Origin: Actinomycetospora chibensis
GTDB lineage: Bacteria > Actinomycetota > Actinomycetes > Mycobacteriales > Pseudonocardiaceae
NCBI RefSeq assembly: GCF_028737215.1
Contig: NZ_JAQZAM010000016.1
Location: 1-64,000, forward strand
Length of the DNA: 64,000 nucleotides
Reading direction: 5' to 3'
This document shows, in pieces, positions 491 through 26,626 of this stretch (position 1 is its first letter; each line of letters begins with the position of its first letter). The notes below the pieces were generated by a model that had not been told where the DNA came from, ran no database searches, and was given only the letters and a program-made list of their open reading frames with translations. Both the position numbers and the translations under genes were made by a program.

Positions 491-530
491 CCGAGGGCCC
501 GGGGCGGTCCTGCTCGCCCCGGGCCCTCGG
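491..530 (-). terminator. Strong intrinsic terminator hairpin
   Basis: A perfect 16-bp GC-rich stem (CCGAGGGCCCGGGGCG at 491-506, its complement at 515-530) with an 8-nt loop. It lies 20 bp past the sortase stop codon and before the ACT gene, so it should end the sortase transcript. No clear U-tract follows, as is common in actinobacteria. Confidence 0.75.
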
Positions 531-3995: not shown

Positions 3996-5459
3996 GTGAT
4001 CGCGCAGCGAGGCCGGACCTGCGCTCTGCTCGTCCTGCTGGCCGCACTCCTCGCTGTCCTCGCCCCCGTGGCGTCCGCGCACGAGTCCACCCCGGTCGGC
4101 GTCCAGCGCGTCGAGCTCTCCCTCGGCGCACGCACGCTCGCCCTCACGATCACCGCGCCGCCCGAGGGCGGCGGGCGCATGCCGGTGGTGGTGCTCCCTC
4201 GCGGCGACGCGCCCCCGGGCGACGTCACGCTCGCGGCCGTCCGCCCGGGCGGGGACCCGGCAGCGGCGCCGGTCGTCGTGCCCGCGGCGCCCGTCGGGCA
4301 ACCGCACGAGGTGGTCCTGTCGGCCGACGGGATCGGCGCCTGGGAGATCACGGTCGCCGACGGGTCGACCGTCGCCCGGGTCCCGATCACCGTTGCCGCT
4401 CCCGGCCCGACGCCCGGCTGGGTGTGGGCGGTGCGGATCGGCGCCGCGCTCGGCGTCATCGCGCTGATCGCGGCGCTGGCCCCGAGCGTGCGACAGCGTC
4501 CCCGCCTGGCCCTCGCCCTCGGCGCCGTCGCACTCGTCGGTGTCACGGTCGCCGTGACGGCCGCGTCGACCGCGCCGACGACGTCGCCGGCGCCCTCCGC
4601 GACGCCGGTCGACGAAGCGGCGCCCCCCGCCGGGGGCCACGCGGGTCACGGCGGCGGCGCCATGCCCGACATGCCAGGGATGGCGGCGGCGGACATGCCG
4701 GCGACGGGTCCCGGCGCCGTCGTCGTCACGGCGCGGACCGGCCCGGGCGCGCAGGTCGGCGCCCCGACCGACCTCGTGCTCGACCTCACCGACGGCTCCA
4801 CCGGCGCCGTGGTCGACGACCTCACGATCCACGACGACGCCCCGATCCACCTCGCGGTGATGGGGCCCGACGGCTCGCTCGCCCACGTCCACCCGGTCCG
4901 CGTCGCACCCGGTCGCTACGTGGTCCGCGTGCAGCCGGCGACGGGCGGGCGTTACGGCGTCTTCGCCGAGATGGAGCGGGCCGGGGACGGCGGCCACCAG
5001 GTCGCCCGCACCGCGTTCGACGTGGCGGGACCCGCGGCTCCGGCGACCCCGGCCGCCCCGGGCGGGGGGATCCGCCAGGTCGCCGGCATGGACGCCGAGG
5101 TGACCGCCCCGGCGGCCGTGGCCGGCCGCCCCACCCGCGTGTCCGTCGCTTTCACCCGGGACGGAGGCGTTCCGGTGACCGACCTCCAGGGCTGGCTGGG
5201 CATGGGCGGCCACCTGATGCTGCTCGGCCCGGGGAACGCCGGGACGCCGACCCCGTCCGACCCGTCGTCGGCATTCGGCCACGTCCACGACATGAGCGCG
5301 GCGGGCCCCGCCGGCACGTACGGCCCGCAGGTCGGCTTCGACTACACCTTCCCCCGCGCCGGTCGCTACGCGCTGTGGGTCCAGGTGCAGCGCGACTGGC
5401 AGGTCCTGACCGTGCCGGTGACGGTCGACGTCGCGGCCGGGTCGGCGCCGACGCCGTGA
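3996..5459 (+). CDS. Secreted/membrane Met- and His-rich protein with two YtkA-like domains
   Basis: A 487-residue exported protein. A signal peptide (ALLVLLAALLAVLAPVASAHE) is followed by a beta-rich domain (about 30-140), two closely spaced hydrophobic helices (WVWAVRIGAALGVIALIAAL and LALALGAVALVGVTVAVTA), a His/Met-rich linker with HAGHGG and MPDMPGMAAADMP, and two beta-sandwich modules containing HLAVMGPDGSLAHVHP and GGHLMLLGP with FGHVHDM. The Met/His clusters suggest binding of copper or another soft metal at the cell surface; this is inference. The GTG at 3996 is chosen because the signal peptide begins there and a -10 box lies 7 nt upstream. It shares a regulatory motif with cbtBA. 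It ends back to back with the SRPBCC gene. Confidence 0.65.
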   Translation: MIAQRGRTCALLVLLAALLAVLAPVASAHESTPVGVQRVELSLGARTLALTITAPPEGGGRMPVVVLPRGDAPPGDVTLAAVRPGGDPAAAPVVVPAAPVGQPHEVVLSADGIGAWEITVADGSTVARVPITVAAPGPTPGWVWAVRIGAALGVIALIAALAPSVRQRPRLALALGAVALVGVTVAVTAASTAPTTSPAPSATPVDEAAPPAGGHAGHGGGAMPDMPGMAAADMPATGPGAVVVTARTGPGAQVGAPTDLVLDLTDGSTGAVVDDLTIHDDAPIHLAVMGPDGSLAHVHPVRVAPGRYVVRVQPATGGRYGVFAEMERAGDGGHQVARTAFDVAGPAAPATPAAPGGGIRQVAGMDAEVTAPAAVAGRPTRVSVAFTRDGGVPVTDLQGWLGMGGHLMLLGPGNAGTPTPSDPSSAFGHVHDMSAAGPAGTYGPQVGFDYTFPRAGRYALWVQVQRDWQVLTVPVTVDVAAGSAPTP

Positions 5460-5936
5460 TCACCGCCCGGCGAAGTGGCGGACGAGGCGACGCTGGCGGT
5501 GGTCGAAGAAGGCCGCGACGACCGGCCGCAGCACCGGCCCCGCCCACGTCAGGAACGCCCGCGGCTCGAAGGCCACGCGGTCGGTGATCGTCGTGGCGCC
5601 GCCGGGACCGGGCAGCACGGTCCGCTCGTGGATCCAGCGCCGCATCGAGGCCATCGTCGACTCCTCGAGGAAGCGTCGTCCCGGCTCCAGTTCGGTGATC
5701 ACGAGGTCGTCGTGGTCGAACGGGATGAGCCCGAACAGCCGCAACCGGGCGCGTCCGAGGGGCTCGCCCACCCGGACGGCGTCGATGCTGTGGACGTCCG
5801 CGTCGGGCGGGAGCGACATCGCCATCCACGGCCGCATCTCGTCGTTGATGCCCTCCGGGGTGACTACGCGCCGCCACACGGTGTCGGTGTCCGCAGGCAC
5901 GAGCGAGGACTGCACGAAGGTCCACACCCCGCCCAT
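5460..5936 (-). CDS. SRPBCC-family protein
   Basis: A 158-residue protein of the START/polyketide-cyclase-like (SRPBCC) fold, which forms a deep hydrophobic ligand pocket. Family marks are the N-terminal strand VQSSLVPADTDTVWRRV, the loop SRRFLEEST-like GRRFLEESTMASMRRWIHERTV and the C-terminal helix PVVAAFFDHRQRRLVRHFA. No ligand can be named. The ATG at 5936 gives the usual domain length. Its stop codon touches the stop of the opposing secreted-protein gene with no bases between. Confidence 0.75.
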   Translation of the reverse strand: MGGVWTFVQSSLVPADTDTVWRRVVTPEGINDEMRPWMAMSLPPDADVHSIDAVRVGEPLGRARLRLFGLIPFDHDDLVITELEPGRRFLEESTMASMRRWIHERTVLPGPGGATTITDRVAFEPRAFLTWAGPVLRPVVAAFFDHRQRRLVRHFAGR

Positions 5937-5996
5937 CTTCAGGATGTGACGCCCGCCGTCTCGGCGGGGGTGACCCGGCGTGAGAGCGTGCGTGCC

Positions 5997-7685: not shown

Positions 7686-9416
7686 CTAGCTGCTGGTCCG
7701 GGTCTCGCGCACGAGGGCCACCACGACGGCGAGCAGCACGAGACCGGTGGCCGGGGCGATGATCGTCCACGGTGCCCGCTCGACGTAGGCGAGGGAGTCC
7801 GCGAGCACTGCGCCCCACTCCGGCGAGTCGGGTGCGGCACCCAGGCCGAGGAAGCTCAGCGCGGCGATCCCGAGCGCGGCGTGCGGCACCCGCGCCAGAC
7901 CGTGGCGCGTCACCGGGCCGACGACCGCGGGCAGGACGTGGCGCCGGGCGATGCGGGCGGGCGACGCGCCGGCCAGGACCGCGGCGCGGACGTAGCCCGA
8001 GGCGCGGGCCTCGGCGGCGAGTGTCCGCGCGTGCACGGCGAGGGGCACCCAGCCGACCGCCGCGACCGCGATCGCCGCGCCCAGCAGTCCCGGCCCGGCG
8101 ATCGCGGCGACGACGAGCCCGACGACGACGGGCGGCAGCGCGTTGAGGACGTCGGCCGCACCGGCGCGGGTCGAGCGTGCCCCGACGCCGACGAGCAGGC
8201 CGACGACCAGGCACGTCGCCGTCACCGCGACCGCGGTGCCCACCGTGAGCAGGGCACCGTGCGCGACCCGGGCCCACAGGTCGCGGCCGAGGGCGTCGGC
8301 ACCCAGCGGCACCGACCACGACGGCGGGGCGAGCCGGCGGCCCTCGACCACGGCCGACGGGTCGCGGGGCAGCCCGGCCACCACGACGGCCGCGAGCACC
8401 CCGGCGGCGACCCACGGGGCCCACGAGCGGGCCCCGCCACCGGGGAGCGGCACGCCCGCGGGGAGCTCGCCGCCCGAGCGGGCGGGACCGAGCAGCGCCC
8501 GGTGCACGAGCACGCCGACGCCGCCGAGGCCCAGCCCGAGCAGCACCAGCAGCATCACCGCGGCCTGGGCGACCGGCAGGTCCTGGGCGAGCACGGCGTC
8601 CAGCGCCGTCGAACCGACGCCCGGCACGCCGAAGAGCTCCTCGACGGCGACGGCGCTGCCGAGCAGGCCGACGACCAGCAGCGCGATCTGGGGCACCGCC
8701 GTGGCCACCGCACGCCGGGCGACGCCGAGCGCGATCGTCGCCGGCCGCGTGCCCCACGACCGCCACGTGCGTACCCACGGCTCGGCCAGCGCCGACTCCG
8801 TCGCCGACGACAGCATCCGCGCGAGCAGGCCGCCGGCGGGCAGGCCGAGCGCGAGCGCCGGGAGCACGAGGTGCACCGGACCGGAGAACCCGGTACTGGG
8901 CAGCAGCCCCCACGCGACGGCGACGACGGCGACGAGCACGGCCCCCAGCGCGATCTCGGGCACCGCACCCAGGACCGAGGCGACCAGCGCGCTCCCGCGA
9001 CCCGCGTCGCCGGTCCCGCGGCGGGCCGCCCGCGCCGCGCCCGGCGCGAGCAGACCGAGCGCCGCGACGGCGGCGACGACCGCGGCCGCGACGGCCAGCG
9101 TCAGCGAGACCCCGATCGCGGCGAGCACCCCCGGGGCGACCGGGCCCCGCGAGACCCACGAGGTGCCGAGATCGCCGGTGACCACCCCGCCGAGCCAGCC
9201 GAGTGCTCCGCCGACCGGGTTCGTCGGCAGGTCCAGCTCGGCGCGCAGGGCGTCGAGCGTCGCCGGGTCGACCCCGCGCTCGGGGTAGCGGGTGCGCAGG
9301 ACGGTCGCAGCGGGGTCGGTGTCCCACAGCCAGGGCAGCGCGGCGATCACGACGGTGAGCAGGACGACCGCCAGCCCGGTCGAGACCCAGGGCAGGAGCC
9401 GCCGCGCGGCGGTCAT
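7686..9416 (-). CDS. Fused DppB-DppC type ABC permease
   Basis: A 576-residue membrane protein that carries both permease subunits of a peptide/nickel ABC importer in one chain. Residues about 1-310 resemble DppB/NikB (TDPAATVLRTRYPERG, PTNPVGGALGWLGGVVTGDLGTSW, and LFGVPGVGSTALDAVLAQDLPVAQA). Residues about 340-576 resemble DppC/NikC (PLGADALGRDLWARVAHGALLTVGTA, the coupling stretch AAVLAGASPARIARRHVLPAVVGPV, and ALSFLGLGAAPDSPEWGAVLADS). The two are normally separate proteins. The start overlaps the lipoprotein stop by 4 bp. The substrate is unknown; nickel, cobalt or a metal chelate is suggested by the neighbourhood only. Confidence 0.85.
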   Translation of the reverse strand: MTAARRLLPWVSTGLAVVLLTVVIAALPWLWDTDPAATVLRTRYPERGVDPATLDALRAELDLPTNPVGGALGWLGGVVTGDLGTSWVSRGPVAPGVLAAIGVSLTLAVAAAVVAAVAALGLLAPGAARAARRGTGDAGRGSALVASVLGAVPEIALGAVLVAVVAVAWGLLPSTGFSGPVHLVLPALALGLPAGGLLARMLSSATESALAEPWVRTWRSWGTRPATIALGVARRAVATAVPQIALLVVGLLGSAVAVEELFGVPGVGSTALDAVLAQDLPVAQAAVMLLVLLGLGLGGVGVLVHRALLGPARSGGELPAGVPLPGGGARSWAPWVAAGVLAAVVVAGLPRDPSAVVEGRRLAPPSWSVPLGADALGRDLWARVAHGALLTVGTAVAVTATCLVVGLLVGVGARSTRAGAADVLNALPPVVVGLVVAAIAGPGLLGAAIAVAAVGWVPLAVHARTLAAEARASGYVRAAVLAGASPARIARRHVLPAVVGPVTRHGLARVPHAALGIAALSFLGLGAAPDSPEWGAVLADSLAYVERAPWTIIAPATGLVLLAVVVALVRETRTSS

Positions 9417-20123: not shown

Positions 20124-20735
20124 GTGGCCGAGGGTGTCAAGAAGCGCGCGACCCGGCGCCGGATCGTCGACGCCGCGACGGCGCTGTTCGTCGCGGAGGG
20201 CTACGGGGCGACCACACTGGAGCAGATCGCGGCGCGGGCGGACGTGGCCGTGCAGACCATCTACTTCCACTTCGGTAACAAGCGCACGGTGCTCAAGGAG
20301 GCCGTCGACGTCGCATCGGTCGGCGACGACGAGCCGGTGCCGCTGCTGGATCGGCCGTGGATGGACCGGTTGCGCGCCGAGACCGATCCGGGCGCCGTCG
20401 TCGACGGCTGGGTCGCCGCGAGCCGCGAGATCGTCGAGCGGGTCGGAGGCATCATGGGCGTCGTCCGCGACGCCGCCGTGGTCGATCCCGAGATGGCCGA
20501 GCAGTGGGCGGTCAACGAGGAGCAGCGGGCGACGGCGTTCCGGACGTTCGTCGACCTGCTCGACGCCCGGGACGCGCTGCGGTCGGGCCTGTCGGCCGAC
20601 GAGGCCACCGACATCGTCGTCGCCGTGATGAGCATCGAGGTCTACCTGCTGCTGGCGCGGCGGGGTTGGACGCCCGAGCGCTGGCAGCGATGGATCACCC
20701 GGACGCTGCGGACGGCATTGCTCTCCGACGCATAG
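20124..20735 (+). CDS. TetR-family transcriptional regulator
   Basis: A 203-residue repressor. The N-terminal DNA-binding domain contains RRRIVDAATALFVAEGYGATTLEQIAARADVAVQTIYFHF-type text (residues about 9-50), and the C-terminal domain is a helical ligand-binding bundle without recognisable specificity. The GTG at 20124 follows directly on a 26-bp palindrome that is probably its own operator. Its last 41 bp overlap the end of the convergent mysD gene. Confidence 0.87.
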   Translation: MAEGVKKRATRRRIVDAATALFVAEGYGATTLEQIAARADVAVQTIYFHFGNKRTVLKEAVDVASVGDDEPVPLLDRPWMDRLRAETDPGAVVDGWVAASREIVERVGGIMGVVRDAAVVDPEMAEQWAVNEEQRATAFRTFVDLLDARDALRSGLSADEATDIVVAVMSIEVYLLLARRGWTPERWQRWITRTLRTALLSDA

Positions 20736-21801
20736 CGCTCTCGACGGCCGTCGCCAGCAGCTCGTCCAGCGGATTCCCGCCGGCCGCGGCCATGACGGCG
20801 AGCACGCTGGAGGGCGCGAACGAGCAGTAGAGGCTCGCCTCGAGGAACACGGGGCGCCCCGTGGGGTCGACGCGGAAGTCGAACAGCGAGTAGTCCCGGC
20901 ACCCGAGCGCGACGTGGCAGCGGCGCGCGGCCTCCCACACCCGGGCGGTCACCGGGTCGCCGGGGTCGACGATCAGCACCTCGGGGTTGTCCTTCGCCAC
21001 CAGGCGCAGCCCACCGGCGTCGTCGGGGGCGAGCTTGTCGTCGTAGGAGCGGACGGGCCGGGTCGCCTCGTCGAGGAGGTACTCCTCCAGCGGGAGGCCC
21101 ACGAGCTCGCCGTCCCGCTCGACCAGCCCGCACCGCACCTCCCGCCCGAGCGGGACGAACTCCTCGACCAGGACCTCCGCGGAGTGCGCGAACGCGTCGT
21201 CGAGGGCCTCGGGGAAGCCGTCGGCGGAGCGCACCAGCGTCACCCCGAGCGAGTTGTCGGCGTCCGCGGGCTTGACCACCGCGGGCGGCGCGACCGTCGG
21301 CCGGTCCCCGCGCCGTAGCACTTCGCCGTCCGGGACGTCGACGCCGGCGGCGGCGACCATCGCCTTCGCGGCGGCCTTGCGCGCCCCGATCGCCATGACC
21401 TCGCCGGTGTTGCCGACGACGGGCACGCCCAGCACCTCGAACAGCGAGCGGTAGGACGTCATGCCGGGCAGGCAGAACATCTGGGGGAGCACCACGTCGA
21501 TCCCGAGCACGCCCAGGTGTGCGAGGGCGTCGGCCGGGTCGAAGGGTGTCGCGGCGGCGATCACGTCGGCGTCGAAGGACGCCGGGAACCGCCACCGGCC
21601 GTCGGGGGAGACGACGGCCGGATGGGCCTCGTAGCGCTCCGGGTCCGCGGTGGCCGCGAGGCAGCCGCGGGCGTAGGTCAGCGAGAGGTCGGCGTGGAAG
21701 TCGCTCACGGCGGACCCGGCGAGGTGCAGCACGCGCAGGCGGGAGACGGAGCATCCGGGGGAGCACGCCGATAGGGGAGCTCGACCCGGAGAGGCGGTCA
21801 C
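20695..21801 (-). CDS. mysD: D-Ala-D-Ala-ligase-like ATP-grasp enzyme (MysD-like)
   Basis: A 368-residue ATP-grasp ligase. Conserved points are LPQMFCLPGMTSYRSLFEVLGVPVVGN, ARKAAAKAMVAAAGVDVPDG, the ATP-binding PAVVKPADADNSLGVTLV, VLVEEFVPLGREVRCGL and the metal site FLEASLYCSF. In mycosporine-like amino acid (MAA) synthesis MysD joins a second amino acid to mycosporine-glycine, giving imine products such as shinorine. The GTG at 21801 lies next to the mysC stop (21803). It is the last gene of the MAA operon and overlaps the tetR end by 41 bp. Which amino acid is added cannot be read. Confidence 0.85.
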   Translation of the reverse strand: MTASPGRAPLSACSPGCSVSRLRVLHLAGSAVSDFHADLSLTYARGCLAATADPERYEAHPAVVSPDGRWRFPASFDADVIAAATPFDPADALAHLGVLGIDVVLPQMFCLPGMTSYRSLFEVLGVPVVGNTGEVMAIGARKAAAKAMVAAAGVDVPDGEVLRRGDRPTVAPPAVVKPADADNSLGVTLVRSADGFPEALDDAFAHSAEVLVEEFVPLGREVRCGLVERDGELVGLPLEEYLLDEATRPVRSYDDKLAPDDAGGLRLVAKDNPEVLIVDPGDPVTARVWEAARRCHVALGCRDYSLFDFRVDPTGRPVFLEASLYCSFAPSSVLAVMAAAGGNPLDELLATAVESAMRRRAMPSAASG

Positions 21802-21802
21802 G

Positions 21803-23137
21803 TCAGTCCCCCGCCGGCTCGACGAGCTTGCCGATGTTGACGTCCACGCGGATCCACGGCCGGCCGGTGACGAGGTTGCGCAGCAGCAGCGACGGGATCT
21901 GCAGGTGGTGGAGCAGCAGGAACGGCAGCGGGTCGTCGCGGTCGAAGACGGCGTCGGTCCCGCGCCGGATCACGTCGAGGCGCTCGAGGGCCGTGGACGG
22001 ACGCGAGATCATCCGCCACACCTCGTGGTAGAGCCAGTAGGTCGGGCGGCTGTCCGGGCGCGGTGTCAGCGGACCCTCGCCGGGGTCCAGGTCGTCGAGG
22101 TAGGCACGGGCGAGGGCCTCGGAGTCGCGGTGGAACATCGTGATCGCCGAGTGCGTCCGCGGGTTGCACTCGAGGGCGACGAGGCCGCCCCCGGGGGTCT
22201 CGATGAAGTCGAACGACAGCTGCCCGCTGACCCGCAGCGCGCCGACGAAGCGGCGCACCCACTCCTCGATCTCCGGCTTGTCGACCATCGCGTAGTTGAG
22301 CTGGAACGCCGACGACTCGCAGCACGCCCAGACCTGCACGCGGCCGTCCCGCACGGTGCTGTGCGTGCAGTACTCCCGCCCCGGGGTGAACTCCTGGAGG
22401 ATCCAGGGCGTGTCCGCGGACATCGGCTTCGACCGCGCGAACTCCTCGGTCTCGGCCGCCGTGGGGCGCGGCAGGGTCGTGAGGTCGAGGCGTGCGACCG
22501 GGTCGTAGGGGACGCTCTTGAGGATCCAGGGCCCGGGTTCCGCGTCGAAGTCGAAGTCCTCGACCTGCTTCGCCGCGGTCACCCGGTGGGTCGCGGGGAC
22601 GGGCAGCCCGAGCGTGTCGGCGGCCTCGGCGAACCGGTCCTTGTCGTCGAGGATGCGCAGCACCTCGGGATCGGGGTGCAGCACCTCGCAGAACTCGGCG
22701 AGCACCGGCTTCGCCAGCGAGTCGTACCGGCTTGCCGCCGGGCTGCAGACCGGGACCCAGACGTCGACGCCCTCGGCGACGACGACGTCGCGCAGCGCGT
22801 CGACGTAGCCGGGCGTGCCGGGTTCCGGCACCAGGTGGAAGGCGTCGACCGCCCGCGAGAAGCGGTGCCCGGTGAGCCGGTAGCGCGCCGACTCGACCAG
22901 CACCACCCGGTGGCCCGCGGCGTGGAACGCGCGCGCCAGCGCCAGGGCCTTGGTCATCTTGCCGCCGCTGATGAGCACGGTGCGCGGGTCGTCGGCCACC
23001 GTGCGCCGCGGCGGGACCAGCAGCGAGCGCACCAGCGCCGCCCCCGTGACCGCGAGCGTCATCGGCAGCGGGACGGTCAGCAGGGCCAGCGCCCCGAGGG
23101 TCTTCGGGGCGTGGGCGAGGACGGCACGCAGGGTCAC
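21803..23137 (-). CDS. mysC: ATP-grasp mycosporine-glycine synthase (MysC-like)
   Basis: A 444-residue ATP-grasp protein whose order fits MysC, which activates 4-deoxygadusol and attaches glycine. It has an N-terminal hydrophobic stretch (LGALALLTVPLPMTLAVTGAALV, shortened), then VLISGGKMTKALALARAFHAAGHRVVLVE, the ATP-grasp part ILDDKDRFAEAADTLGLPVPATHRV, WILKSVPYDP, ILQEFTPGREYCTHS, and FIETPGGGLVALECNPRTHSAITMF. The GTG start overlaps the preceding dioxygenase stop by 4 bp. Identification rests on this context: cyclase, O-methyltransferase and a D-Ala-D-Ala-type ligase in the same coupled operon. Confidence 0.87.
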   Translation of the reverse strand: MTLRAVLAHAPKTLGALALLTVPLPMTLAVTGAALVRSLLVPPRRTVADDPRTVLISGGKMTKALALARAFHAAGHRVVLVESARYRLTGHRFSRAVDAFHLVPEPGTPGYVDALRDVVVAEGVDVWVPVCSPAASRYDSLAKPVLAEFCEVLHPDPEVLRILDDKDRFAEAADTLGLPVPATHRVTAAKQVEDFDFDAEPGPWILKSVPYDPVARLDLTTLPRPTAAETEEFARSKPMSADTPWILQEFTPGREYCTHSTVRDGRVQVWACCESSAFQLNYAMVDKPEIEEWVRRFVGALRVSGQLSFDFIETPGGGLVALECNPRTHSAITMFHRDSEALARAYLDDLDPGEGPLTPRPDSRPTYWLYHEVWRMISRPSTALERLDVIRRGTDAVFDRDDPLPFLLLHHLQIPSLLLRNLVTGRPWIRVDVNIGKLVEPAGD

Positions 23138-23688
23138 CGGGCCACCACCGTCTCGCGGTGCAGGATGCGGTCGTGGTCCCAGAGGACCACGTCGCCCGGA
23201 GCCCAGGTGTGCCGGTAGGCGGTGTCCGCGCCCGTCGCGTGCTCGTAGAGGAAGCCGATCGTCGTCCGCGACGCGCCGCCGTCCATCCCGCTGATCTCCG
23301 CGCCGCGCTCGGGCGCGGCGAGGTGCAGTGCGGTGCGCCCGGTGTCCGGGTGCCGGCGGAACAGCGGCTGCTCGGCGCCGGCCCCGTCGGTGACCGTGCG
23401 CCCCGCGAGGTGCATGCGGATGTCCGACGACAGGGTCTCGTAGGCGCGGTACCGGTCGCCGAAGAGCGACTCGCCCCCGCGCTCGGGCGCGGGGGCGAGT
23501 CGGACGTCTCCGACACGGCGCCGGAGCGCCGCGAGATCGTCCTCGTCGAGGCCCTCCTGGGCGGGCACGACGACGACGCCGTGCTCGGCGAGCAGGCTGC
23601 GCAGCTCATCGATCCGGGCGTCGTCGGCCGTCGCGAGGTCGAGGCCGGTGACCTCGACGCCGATCGGCTCCAGTGCGGTGGTCGCCAC
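23134..23688 (-). CDS. TauD/TfdA-like protein lacking the HxD segment
   Basis: A 184-residue relative of Fe(II)/2-oxoglutarate dioxygenases (TauD is about 283). The N-terminal part GVEVTGLDLATADDARIDELRSLLAEHGVVVV and the C-terminal part HPDTGRTALHL, RHTWAPGDVVLWDHDRILHRE fit TauD, including the distal His and the Arg-bearing end. Between residues about 65 and 75 the usual WHxD segment, which supplies His and Asp iron ligands, is absent: the text jumps from RVGDVRLAPAPER to GGESLFGDRYRAYETL (equal to TauD GGDTLW). A perfect 36-bp hairpin lies exactly there. Either a truncated remnant or an unusual protein. It has GAGGAG upstream and is coupled to mysC. Confidence 0.72.
   Translation of the reverse strand: MATTALEPIGVEVTGLDLATADDARIDELRSLLAEHGVVVVPAQEGLDEDDLAALRRRVGDVRLAPAPERGGESLFGDRYRAYETLSSDIRMHLAGRTVTDGAGAEQPLFRRHPDTGRTALHLAAPERGAEISGMDGGASRTTIGFLYEHATGADTAYRHTWAPGDVVLWDHDRILHRETVVAR
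23467..23502. repeat. Perfect 16-bp inverted repeat inside the TauD-like gene
   Basis: CGACTCGCCCCCGCGC (23467-23482), loop TCGG, and its exact complement (23487-23502). It falls where the conserved HxD region of TauD proteins is missing, so it looks like the scar of a hairpin-associated deletion or an assembly fold-back. Confidence 0.8.
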
Positions 23689-23696
23689 GTTTCTCC

Positions 23697-24521
23697 TCAC
23701 CCGCTCCGGCGGATCAGGGTCAGGCCGTCGCGCAACGGCAGGAGCACCTGCTCGACGCGCGGGTCGGCGGCGACGGTGTCGTTGAACGCGGCGATCGCGT
23801 CCCCGTTGGCCGTGCGCTCGCCGGCGACCCACGGCGCGCCCTGCATGAGCGTGTTGTCGACGGCGACCAGGCCGTGCGGGGCGAGCAGACCGGTGTTGAC
23901 CAGCGCCGCGAGATAGTCCGCGTAGCCCGCCTTGTCGGCGTCGATGAACACGAGGTCGAACTCCTCGCCGGCCGCGGCCAGCGCGGCGAGCGTGTCGGCG
24001 GCCGGCCCGACCTCGACGGTGATGCGCCCGCCGGCCGGGGACTCCGAGAACGCCCGGCGGGCCAGGTCGGCCACCTCGGCGTCGAGCTCGCACGCCACGA
24101 GCCGCCCGTCGACGGGCAGGGCCTCGGCCATGGCGAGCGCCGAGTACCCGGTGAACAGGCCGATCTCCAGCACCCGCCGGGCCCGGGTGGCGCCGACCAG
24201 CATCTTCAGCGCCTGACCCTCGACGTGCCCCGAGAGCATCTCCTGCTCGAGGAACACCGCCCCGGGGTCGCGCCCCGCCCAGTCGTGCTCGCGAGTCAGC
24301 GCGGCGAGGCGGGCGAGCGCGGACGACTCCGGCGTGGTGCAGCGCTCGAGGTACGGGTCGAGCCCGCCGGCGAGCTCCTGCGCCCGCCGCAGGTCGGCGC
24401 GGACGTCGTCGGGCACGTCCGCCACGCCGTCGAGTCCGTCGGCGATCCGGTCGAGCGTGGCGGCGAGGATGCCGACCGGGGTCACCGGCCGGGGTCCGGA
24501 CGCGCGAGCCGGGGCACTCAT
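23697..24521 (-). CDS. mysB: O-methyltransferase (MysB-like)
   Basis: A 274-residue SAM-dependent methyltransferase of the caffeoyl-CoA/catechol OMT type. Motif I is [20 protein letters not shown], followed by [35 protein letters not shown] (metal-binding Asp) and [15 protein letters not shown]. In MAA synthesis MysB methylates the cyclase product on the way to 4-deoxygadusol. The ATG overlaps the mysA stop by 4 bp (ATGA). An extra N-terminal helical region of about 60 residues is normal for this subgroup. Confidence 0.87.
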
Positions 24522-25717
24522 CGGCGGAACGTGTCCACACCCGCGCCCGCGCGGGGGTAGTCGGCCACCAGCGCGCGGTGCGCGGCGAGCGTCTCCTCGA
24601 GCTCGTCGGCGCCCAGGTCGTTGATGAAGTGCGTCGTCCCGATCGGCCGCGGGACCGCGGCGCGCAGCTTGCCGTCGCGGGTCTGCAGGATCGAGTCGGT
24701 GCCCTTGGCCAGCACCTCCGGGGTGAGCAGTGGGCTGTCGAGGGAGAGCCCGAGGCGGCTCATCAGGCCGAGGATCCGGTCGCGGGCGGCCTCGGTGATG
24801 TAGCCGCGGCGCTGCGCGAGGGTGGTCGAGAGCGCCATGTCGACGCTGATCGCGTGCCCGTGGAAGAAGGGCTCGTCGCCGGAGAGCTCGAGCGTCGGGC
24901 TCCAGGTGTGGCCGAAGGCGATGACGCGGTCGAGGTCGAGCTCCTGGAGGTTCGGCACCTCGAGCCGCAGCATCGTCTCGATCGCGTCGTAGGTCAGCCG
25001 GTGGGTGACCTCGCGGAGCTCCGGCGAGCCGTCCCGGTGCCCGAAGCCGGTGGCGAGCAGGTCCTCGCCGTACTTCTCGAGCAGCTCGAAGATGCTCTCG
25101 TTGCCCACCACGGCGATCTTGATGAGCTCGGCCATGCCGTTGCGCACCTGCTCGACGGGCAGGGTCGCGAGGAACGAGAAGTCGAGCAGAACCTGGCGGG
25201 ACGCGTGGAAGGCCCCGAGGCGGTTCTTCGCCTTGCCGTGGTTCACCGCGACCTTGATCGCGACGCTGGCGTCGACGAGCCCGATGAGCGTGGTCGGGAT
25301 GCGGATGTAGTCGGTGGACCGCCGGAAGATCGAGCACGCGAAGCCGGCGACGTCGGTGGTGAGGCCACCGCCGACGACGAGCACGGGCTCGGTGCGGACC
25401 AGCCCGAAGTCGCCGAACGCGTCCACGATGCGCTCCGCGGTGCGCATCGTCTTGTCCGCCTCGTCGATCGCGATCGCGAAGATCGTGAGGTCGATGCCGT
25501 GGTGGTCGAAGTAGGCCTGCATCGCGTCGCCGTGGAGCTCGGCCACGGTCGCGTCCACGACGGCGAGGCAGCGGCCGTAGGGACGGTAGGCGTCCGCCAG
25601 CCCGGTGTTCTCCGGCGCGAAGACGCCGTCGACGAGGGTGAGCGAGTAGTCGATCTTCTGGTAGCCCTCGACGTGGAAGGCGGTGTCGGTGGCCGTGAGG
25701 GTCGGCTGGGCGGTCAT
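24518..25717 (-). CDS. mysA: Sedoheptulose-7-phosphate cyclase, DDGS type (MysA-like)
   Basis: A 399-residue sugar-phosphate cyclase related to dehydroquinate synthase. Seen are the NAD site [22 protein letters not shown], the [26 protein letters not shown] catalytic stretch, [25 protein letters not shown], and the zinc ligands around [11 protein letters not shown] and [13 protein letters not shown]. Together with mysB, mysC and mysD this indicates 2-desmethyl-4-deoxygadusol synthase, which feeds MAA synthesis, rather than EEVS or DHQ synthase. The ATG at 25717 has GGGAGA about 9 nt upstream. A terminator-like hairpin (25771-25790) precedes it, so it may have its own promoter. Confidence 0.87.
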
Positions 25718-25770
25718 GGGCGCGGTCTCCCGATCTGGGTGCACGGGGTGATGTGGGCGTGCGTCATCGG

Positions 25771-25827: not shown

Positions 25828-26493
25828 CTAGGCCGCGGTCAGGGAGGTGAGGTCGTCGACGGTCAGGCGGTCGAGGCGACGCGCCGCCTCGGGGAACTCG
25901 CCGCTCGCGGTGTTCTCGTTCGGGAAGGCGACACAGGTGACCCCGGCCGCGGCGGCGGCGCGGACGCCGTCGGCGTTGTCCTCGATGGCCACGGCCGCGC
26001 CGGCGTCCTCACCGAGGGTCGTCAGCGCGAGGGCGTAGGCGGCGGGGTCGGGCTTGGGGTTGTCGACCTGGTCGGAGGCGACGACGACGTCGAAGTGCTC
26101 GGGACGGATCGTCGCCTGGAGCCCGTCGAGCAGGGCGAGGACGTTGTCGCGGGACGTCGTCGTGACGAACCCGGTCTTCCAGCCCTGGCTCTTGGCCGCG
26201 CGCAGCGCGTCCAGCACACCGGGCCGGGGCGCGGGGGCCTGCGTGCGCAGCTTCTCCTGGAAGAGGCGCGACTTCGTGGCGTGCACCGCGGCGGCGTCGA
26301 CGTCCTCGCCACGGGCCTTCGCCTCGTCGGCGATGCGGGTCTCGCCGCCCGCCTTCCCGAGACGGGAGCGGTAGTCGTCGCGGTCCCAGTTCCAGTCCAG
26401 ACCGTGCTCGGCGAAGGCCTCGTTGAAGGCCGCGCGCTGCAGTTCGGAGGAGTCGGCGACGCTGCTGATCGAGCCGAAGAGGAGTGCGGTCAC
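25828..26493 (-). CDS. HAD-superfamily protein without the motif I nucleophile
   Basis: A 221-residue CbbY/PGMB-like HAD protein. Motif II (TTTSRDN), the motif III Lys in NPKPDPAAY and motif [11 protein letters not shown] are all normal. Motif I, usually FDxDGT with Asp nucleophile and Asp acid/base, reads F6-G7-S8-I9-S10, so both aspartates are missing. The rest of the cap ([32 protein letters not shown], shortened) is intact, so the loss looks evolved, not a frameshift. The GTG at 26493 is the fitting start. It lies directly upstream of the MAA operon in the same direction, which suggests but does not prove a role there. Confidence 0.8.
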
Positions 26494-26626
26494 CGGTGTG
26501 GTCCCTTTCGATCGGGGCGCACGAGGTGGCGCCGCGAGGGGGGTGACCACGGGAGGAGGACCGAAACGTGCCAGTCGGCCGGGGGCGACGGGCCCGCTCG
26601 GGGCGGGACCCGTCGCGCGTACCCGC

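Follow-up and report, generated by a model that had tools for sequence, protein, structure and literature searches.

An inherited and probably decaying TauD/TfdA-type oxygenase gene in an MAA operon of Actinomycetospora

How did the TauD-like protein of an MAA operon come to lose the segment with the His-x-Asp (HxD) motif of its family, and what is left of its function? This question is raised by a stretch of 64,000 nucleotides from Actinomycetospora chibensis (hereafter, the window), in which a first-pass annotation had described a 184-aa product keeping both ends of a TauD protein but not the HxD segment, with a perfect 16-bp hairpin exactly at the break. The open reading frame, its position and the gap were all borne out, as was the hairpin in an inverted-repeat scan (Table 1). 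The operon displays the gene order HAD-like gene, mysA, mysB, tauD remnant, mysC and mysD, with mys names that we assigned from the known MAA gene set; mysB and mysC presumably encode the O-methyltransferase and the ATP-grasp ligase, respectively, also judging from the gene order.

Table 1. Features of the MAA operon in the window; loci numbered with L are from the best 80 of 172 mysC relatives.
Feature	Positions	Strand	Remarks
HAD-like gene of the operon	25828..26496	minus	motif I FGSIS instead of DxD
mysA	24518..25726	minus	dehydroquinate-synthase-like
mysB	23697..24485	minus	no Pfam or NCBIfam match
tauD remnant (ORF)	23134..23688	minus	begins with GTG; 184 codons and a TGA stop; three in-frame deletions when aligned with intact relatives
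Deletion 1, junction	23479..23503	minus	47-49 aa including His-x-Asp; remnant residues 62-70; aligned with L009, L010 and L012
Perfect 16-bp inverted repeat, 4-nt loop	23467..23502	.	begins with the residue that follows the break
Deletion 2, junction	23388..23389	minus	12 aa
Deletion 3, junction region	23152..23175	minus	14 aa near the C-terminus, including the putative 2OG-binding Arg
mysC	21803..23137	minus	its GTG start overlaps with the TGA of tauD
mysD	20695..21801	minus	D-Ala-D-Ala-ligase-like

Operons of this kind have been described. The GATOR-GC study (PMC11888242) reports that HAD and TauD/TfdA genes are conserved in those of actinobacteria, and the operon in the window resembles these clusters in combining TauD/TfdA with HAD, DHQS, O-MT, ATP-grasp and D-Ala-D-Ala-ligase genes, whereas its tauD differs from theirs by three deletions and has no complete metal or 2OG site. 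The same study cites unpublished work according to which a Rhodococcus fascians operon leads to shinorine, palythine and palythine-serine. In cyanobacterial MAA synthesis, the TauD/TfdA dioxygenase MysI was proposed (PMC10510106); compared at family level only, the window tauD is like MysI a TauD/TfdA family oxygenase gene in MAA synthesis, but unlike MysI its product is predicted to be inactive. The phytanoyl-CoA-dioxygenase-like MysH is an enzyme of palythine synthesis (PMC11378024); we propose an analogous step, from shinorine-type to palythine-type compounds, though the MysH family differs from that of the window TauD. The suggestion that an intact relative would be a new tailoring oxygenase was therefore correct in part: relatives with HxD do occur in actinobacterial mys operons, but they are already in print as a conserved TauD/TfdA gene of these clusters (PMC11888242). 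Our literature search on mycosporine together with Actinomycetospora found no paper, and a report of a decayed tauD in an MAA cluster was not seen among the open-licence papers listed.

Pfam TauD (PF02668) matched the remnant product in two stretches (E 3.3e-27, 96.5 bits, cut-off 27) with the HxD segment falling within the gap between them, and the break lies directly after RVGDV. The first-pass annotation had recognised one lost segment, corresponding to deletion 1, but overlooked two further deletions of 12 and 14 aa. In the numbering of the intact relative L009, deletion 1 removes H94 and D96, and deletion 3 removes R247, which we take, by E. coli TauD, to be the 2OG-binding Arg located 11 residues after the distal His. 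H94, D96, T121, H236 and R247 are kept in 37/37 relatives of alignment A3; the position of T121 is occupied by Ser in the window remnant and by Ala in Actinomycetospora callitridis. The larger alignment A2 comprised 38 of the 53 other loci with a tauD hit, the 15 omitted loci being the damaged L027 and L051, L013 and L024 on the minus strand, the short L087 and, for the rest, loci left out by hand as closely related to rows already included. One HR is left in the remnant, being either the distal His or a later HR with deletion 3 falling between both, and this deletion could have arisen by slippage, given that L009 has two HR-coding repeats (TGCACCGCG) at a distance of 42 bp. By pattern, His-x-Asp is absent in the window and in L008 and present in 51/53 other tauD-hit loci. 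Because both His-x-Asp and the 2OG arginine are deleted, Fe(II)/2OG chemistry by the remnant should be impossible, so that the cluster would be expected to end at the MysD product (shinorine type) and not to proceed to palythine-type products. Among solved structures related to the intact family, aryloxyalkanoate-type dioxygenases lead, with TauD among the first ten.

The window genome consists of 55 contigs, and its nearest named relatives by mysC are Actinomycetospora, including A. callitridis DSM 101857 (L008), the mysC of which is 95% identical to that of the window. All three deletions are common to the window tauD and that of A. callitridis (90% aa identity), which comes from a separate assembly. 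The perfect GC-rich hairpin exactly at the break had favoured an assembly fold-back or a sequencing error as the origin of both deletion and hairpin, but since A. callitridis carries the same deletions in its own assembly, they are refuted as artefacts and represent a real, inherited scar common to sister species. The fold-back, offered earlier as the source of the missing segment, is accordingly the least probable of all the origins considered here, although the hairpin alone, being present in one assembly, could be an artefact. Genome G001 is no second witness, because its tauD letters are exactly those of L008.

In the scan for inverted repeats with arms of at least 14 bp and loops of 3-8, five order-1 Markov sequences of 64 kb each contained none, the window contained one besides the hairpin, and 410,053 bases of GC-rich loci contained two; the hairpin is thus unlikely to be a product of chance, although these genomes are not free of similar repeats. 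The other one in the window (491-530) likewise has perfectly matching arms of 16 bp, separated by a loop of 8 nt, and is perhaps a terminator. The placement of the hairpin at the junction fits a hairpin-driven deletion, by a polymerase skipping the stem, as had been suggested, but A. callitridis has deletion 1 with no perfect hairpin at the junction. RNA folding gave a z of -5.8 for the window stretch, and one of +0.9, no better than shuffles, for that of A. callitridis. For this reason the hairpin is probably not the cause, and we give a hairpin-driven deletion very little credence; strictly speaking, A. callitridis might have had the hairpin and lost it later. On the coding strand, the core of the 3' arm is common to the window, L008 and L009, and the 5' arm, which is unique to the window, owes its exact complementarity to the 3' arm to 6 bp and adjoining substitutions. 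The hairpin therefore appears to have arisen later, in the lineage of the window; the simplest mechanism would be a template switch in which the polymerase used the 3' arm to rewrite the 5' side, with an in-frame gain of 6 bp, the direction being read from one comparison. In quasipalindrome template switching, one arm is converted so as to match the other exactly, and the changes are clustered; the window hairpin seems similar in its apparently copied arm and clustered substitutions, but differs from these published cases in being deduced from two species compared and not from experiment (PMC7202029, PMC8604942).

Looking beyond the species pair, a tauD match was present in 54 of the best 80 of 172 mysC loci, with HxD by pattern in 51 of these 54 (L087, short at its N-terminus, was counted by its motifs). 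Split by record titles, the 80 loci comprise 57 actinobacterial and 23 cyanobacterial ones. Among the former, 49 display HxD, three are damaged (L008, L027 and L051) and five are without tauD (L011, L021, L028, L057 and L081), in none of which a tauD remnant was found. The terminal tauD copy of L027 (Rhodococcus sp. 1168; 8315-8797) is frameshifted and has lost the HxD region by a separate deletion, and its sister on the mysC tree, L032 (BP22), keeps the tauD motifs. In L051 (Nocardioides mangrovicus), the tauD at 5231-5989 shows a deletion of about 55 bp and a frameshift with a 233-aa ORF, HxD being kept in the first piece. The mysC tree, built from the window and 60 of the 80 loci, placed window/L008, L011, L021/L028, L027 and L057 on supported separate branches, L051 and L081 being weakly placed; if tauD was ancestral there, it was lost or decayed at least five times. 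No tauD was found in the 21 cyanobacterial loci other than L024 and L056. These two (at 1854-2549 and 1549-2337, respectively) are MAGs labelled as cyanobacterium with tauD and a HAD-like gene beside the mys genes, and the HAD gene of L056 reads a stop near its start; the GATOR-GC study describes HAD and TauD/TfdA genes as absent from Cyanobacteriota (PMC11888242).

Within the genus, 2/18 genomes carry the deleted tauD form. In the family, 13/249 genomes matched at 1e-22; in two of them the alignment spans the entire remnant, and in the remaining 11 it is confined at this threshold to the portion beyond the break. A plasmid search yielded 441 records, all below 60% identity. As to a close replacement elsewhere in the same genome, PF02668 occurs at four other places, of which one matches the MAA TauD at 39% identity, and this candidate was rejected; several congeners reveal similarly weak matches.

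Whether the remnant is decaying or constrained was addressed by substitution tests. At an 80% threshold, amino acid changes between the window and L008 affected 6/65 conserved and 13/114 variable columns of tauD (ratio 0.81, P = 0.80; 0.67 and 0.92 at thresholds of 70% and 90%), and 11 intact tauD pairs, some sharing sequences and thus not all independent, gave 0.08-0.53 at 80%, the upper value stemming from pair L017-L048 and not being significant itself. For the same two strains, the ratios were 0 for HAD, 0.08 for mysA, 0.21 for mysB, 0.13 for mysC and 0.14 for mysD, compared with 0.92 for tauD in that alignment. After removal of the junction (residues 62-76), tauD retained 4/59 conserved and 12/107 variable changes with a ratio of 0.60 (0.54-0.64 by threshold), and ten controls gave 0.09-0.22, L017-L048 overlapping tauD with 0.63. 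The five neighbours pooled (HAD and mysA-D) had changed at 7/790 conserved and 63/802 variable sites; tauD exceeded them at conserved sites (6/65 vs 7/790, P = 0.0002; 4/59 without the junction, P = 0.005), with no difference at variable sites (P = 0.20-0.26). The share of changes falling on conserved sites differed as well (P = 0.029), but not without the junction (4:12 vs 7:63, P = 0.21), and part of the site-class signal thus sits at the junction of deletion 1. From these comparisons we infer that constraint on the formerly conserved tauD sites is relaxed relative to the neighbours, though not necessarily wholly gone. The surviving remnant is 60% identical to L009, compared with 81% between L009 and L012, mysC being 86-88% identical in both comparisons.

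Other measures indicate that the remnant ORF is not free of selection, as far as can be read from its substitutions. Outside the junction, replacement and silent changes numbered 16:16, fewer replacements than neutrality predicts (P from 0.018 down to 6e-7, depending on the spectrum), base-composition bias weakening such neutrality tests and the most cautious one giving the value of 0.018. A codon model rejected an omega of 1 for both tips (lnL -1488.97 vs -1507.64) and, only weakly, for the stem (lnL -1492.43 vs -1488.97). Third positions held an excess of changes (18/32, P = 0.0064) that did not differ from the neighbours (P = 0.32), and the NG86 ratio of 0.37 for tauD against 0.13-0.24 for the neighbours is weak on its own. 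With regard to pseudogene features, the frame is not broken, staying open in both the window and A. callitridis with indels in-frame only, and replacement changes lie below the neutral rate. AlphaFold2 returned a confident, compact model of the window protein (pLDDT 91.2, pTM 0.85; 94.3 and 0.91 for the intact L009), which is no proof of a stable fold, since its alignment consists mostly of intact relatives.

Two readings of the remnant have to be weighed against this background. We consider it likely that it is an inherited and decaying form of the TauD/TfdA-type oxygenase known from MAA operons of actinobacteria, its frame perhaps staying open so that translation can proceed into mysC, and the rest of the operon still looks maintained. 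The alternative, a protein repurposed within mycosporine synthesis as already envisaged by the first-pass annotation, would be a pseudo-oxygenase whose short chain folds and serves a non-catalytic role, for instance with MAA intermediates or in contact with MysC or the HAD-like protein. The open frame with its in-frame indels, the deficit of replacements, the compact model predicted by AlphaFold2 and the less clear relaxation without the junction all suit such a new role, which is possible but improbable, because the conserved sites of the family are relaxed in the remnant and not in the neighbouring genes, where they change less. Moreover, a single pair of species is known to carry the deleted form, i.e., 2/18 genomes of the genus and two of the 13 strong-match genomes among the 249 searched in the family, and L011, L021, L028 and L057 manage without tauD. 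Slightly less probable still is the more specific version of a metal-free miniature MAA oxygenase with a compact fold, acting non-catalytically in the operon by intermediate binding or complex formation.

For a decaying oxygenase gene, the open frame might be explained, less surely, by translation through the remnant delivering ribosomes to mysC; we propose this because the mysC start overlaps the tauD stop, as GTGA in the window. Of the 20 loci in which tauD immediately precedes mysC, 13 have the tauD stop within GTGA or ATGA, which could serve as an overlapping start, and in L011, which lacks tauD, it is mysB that runs into mysC. Given these few cases, the translational relay is put forward as a proposal. 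A point against it is the operon-internal tauD of L051, which is frameshifted, yet its ORF continues to 5951, 38 bases before the original stop.

The HAD-like protein of the operon displays a peculiarity of its own. DxD of HAD motif I is the nucleophile motif, and all 54 loci with a HAD match, which are not the same set as the 54 with a tauD match, have GS in its place ([FL]GS[ILM][SG]), together with the motif III Lys in 54/54 and the motif IV EDN in 53/54 loci. None of its 92 conserved sites has changed between the window and L008. By its motifs, the HAD-like protein of MAA operons looks like a conserved pseudo-HAD. If the miniature pseudo-oxygenase were real, the operon would hold two pseudo-enzymes, with the remnant perhaps beside the HAD-like protein.

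For the annotation of such clusters, a Pfam TauD match as strong as the one found here is no guarantee of an active enzyme. Natural pairs with and without the gene, namely A. lutea and NBRC 106375 as well as the Rhodococcus strains BP22 and 1168, would allow the effect of TauD on the product to be followed. Altogether, these bacteria are apparently losing a tailoring enzyme of microbial sunscreens even as selection continues to act on the core pathway.
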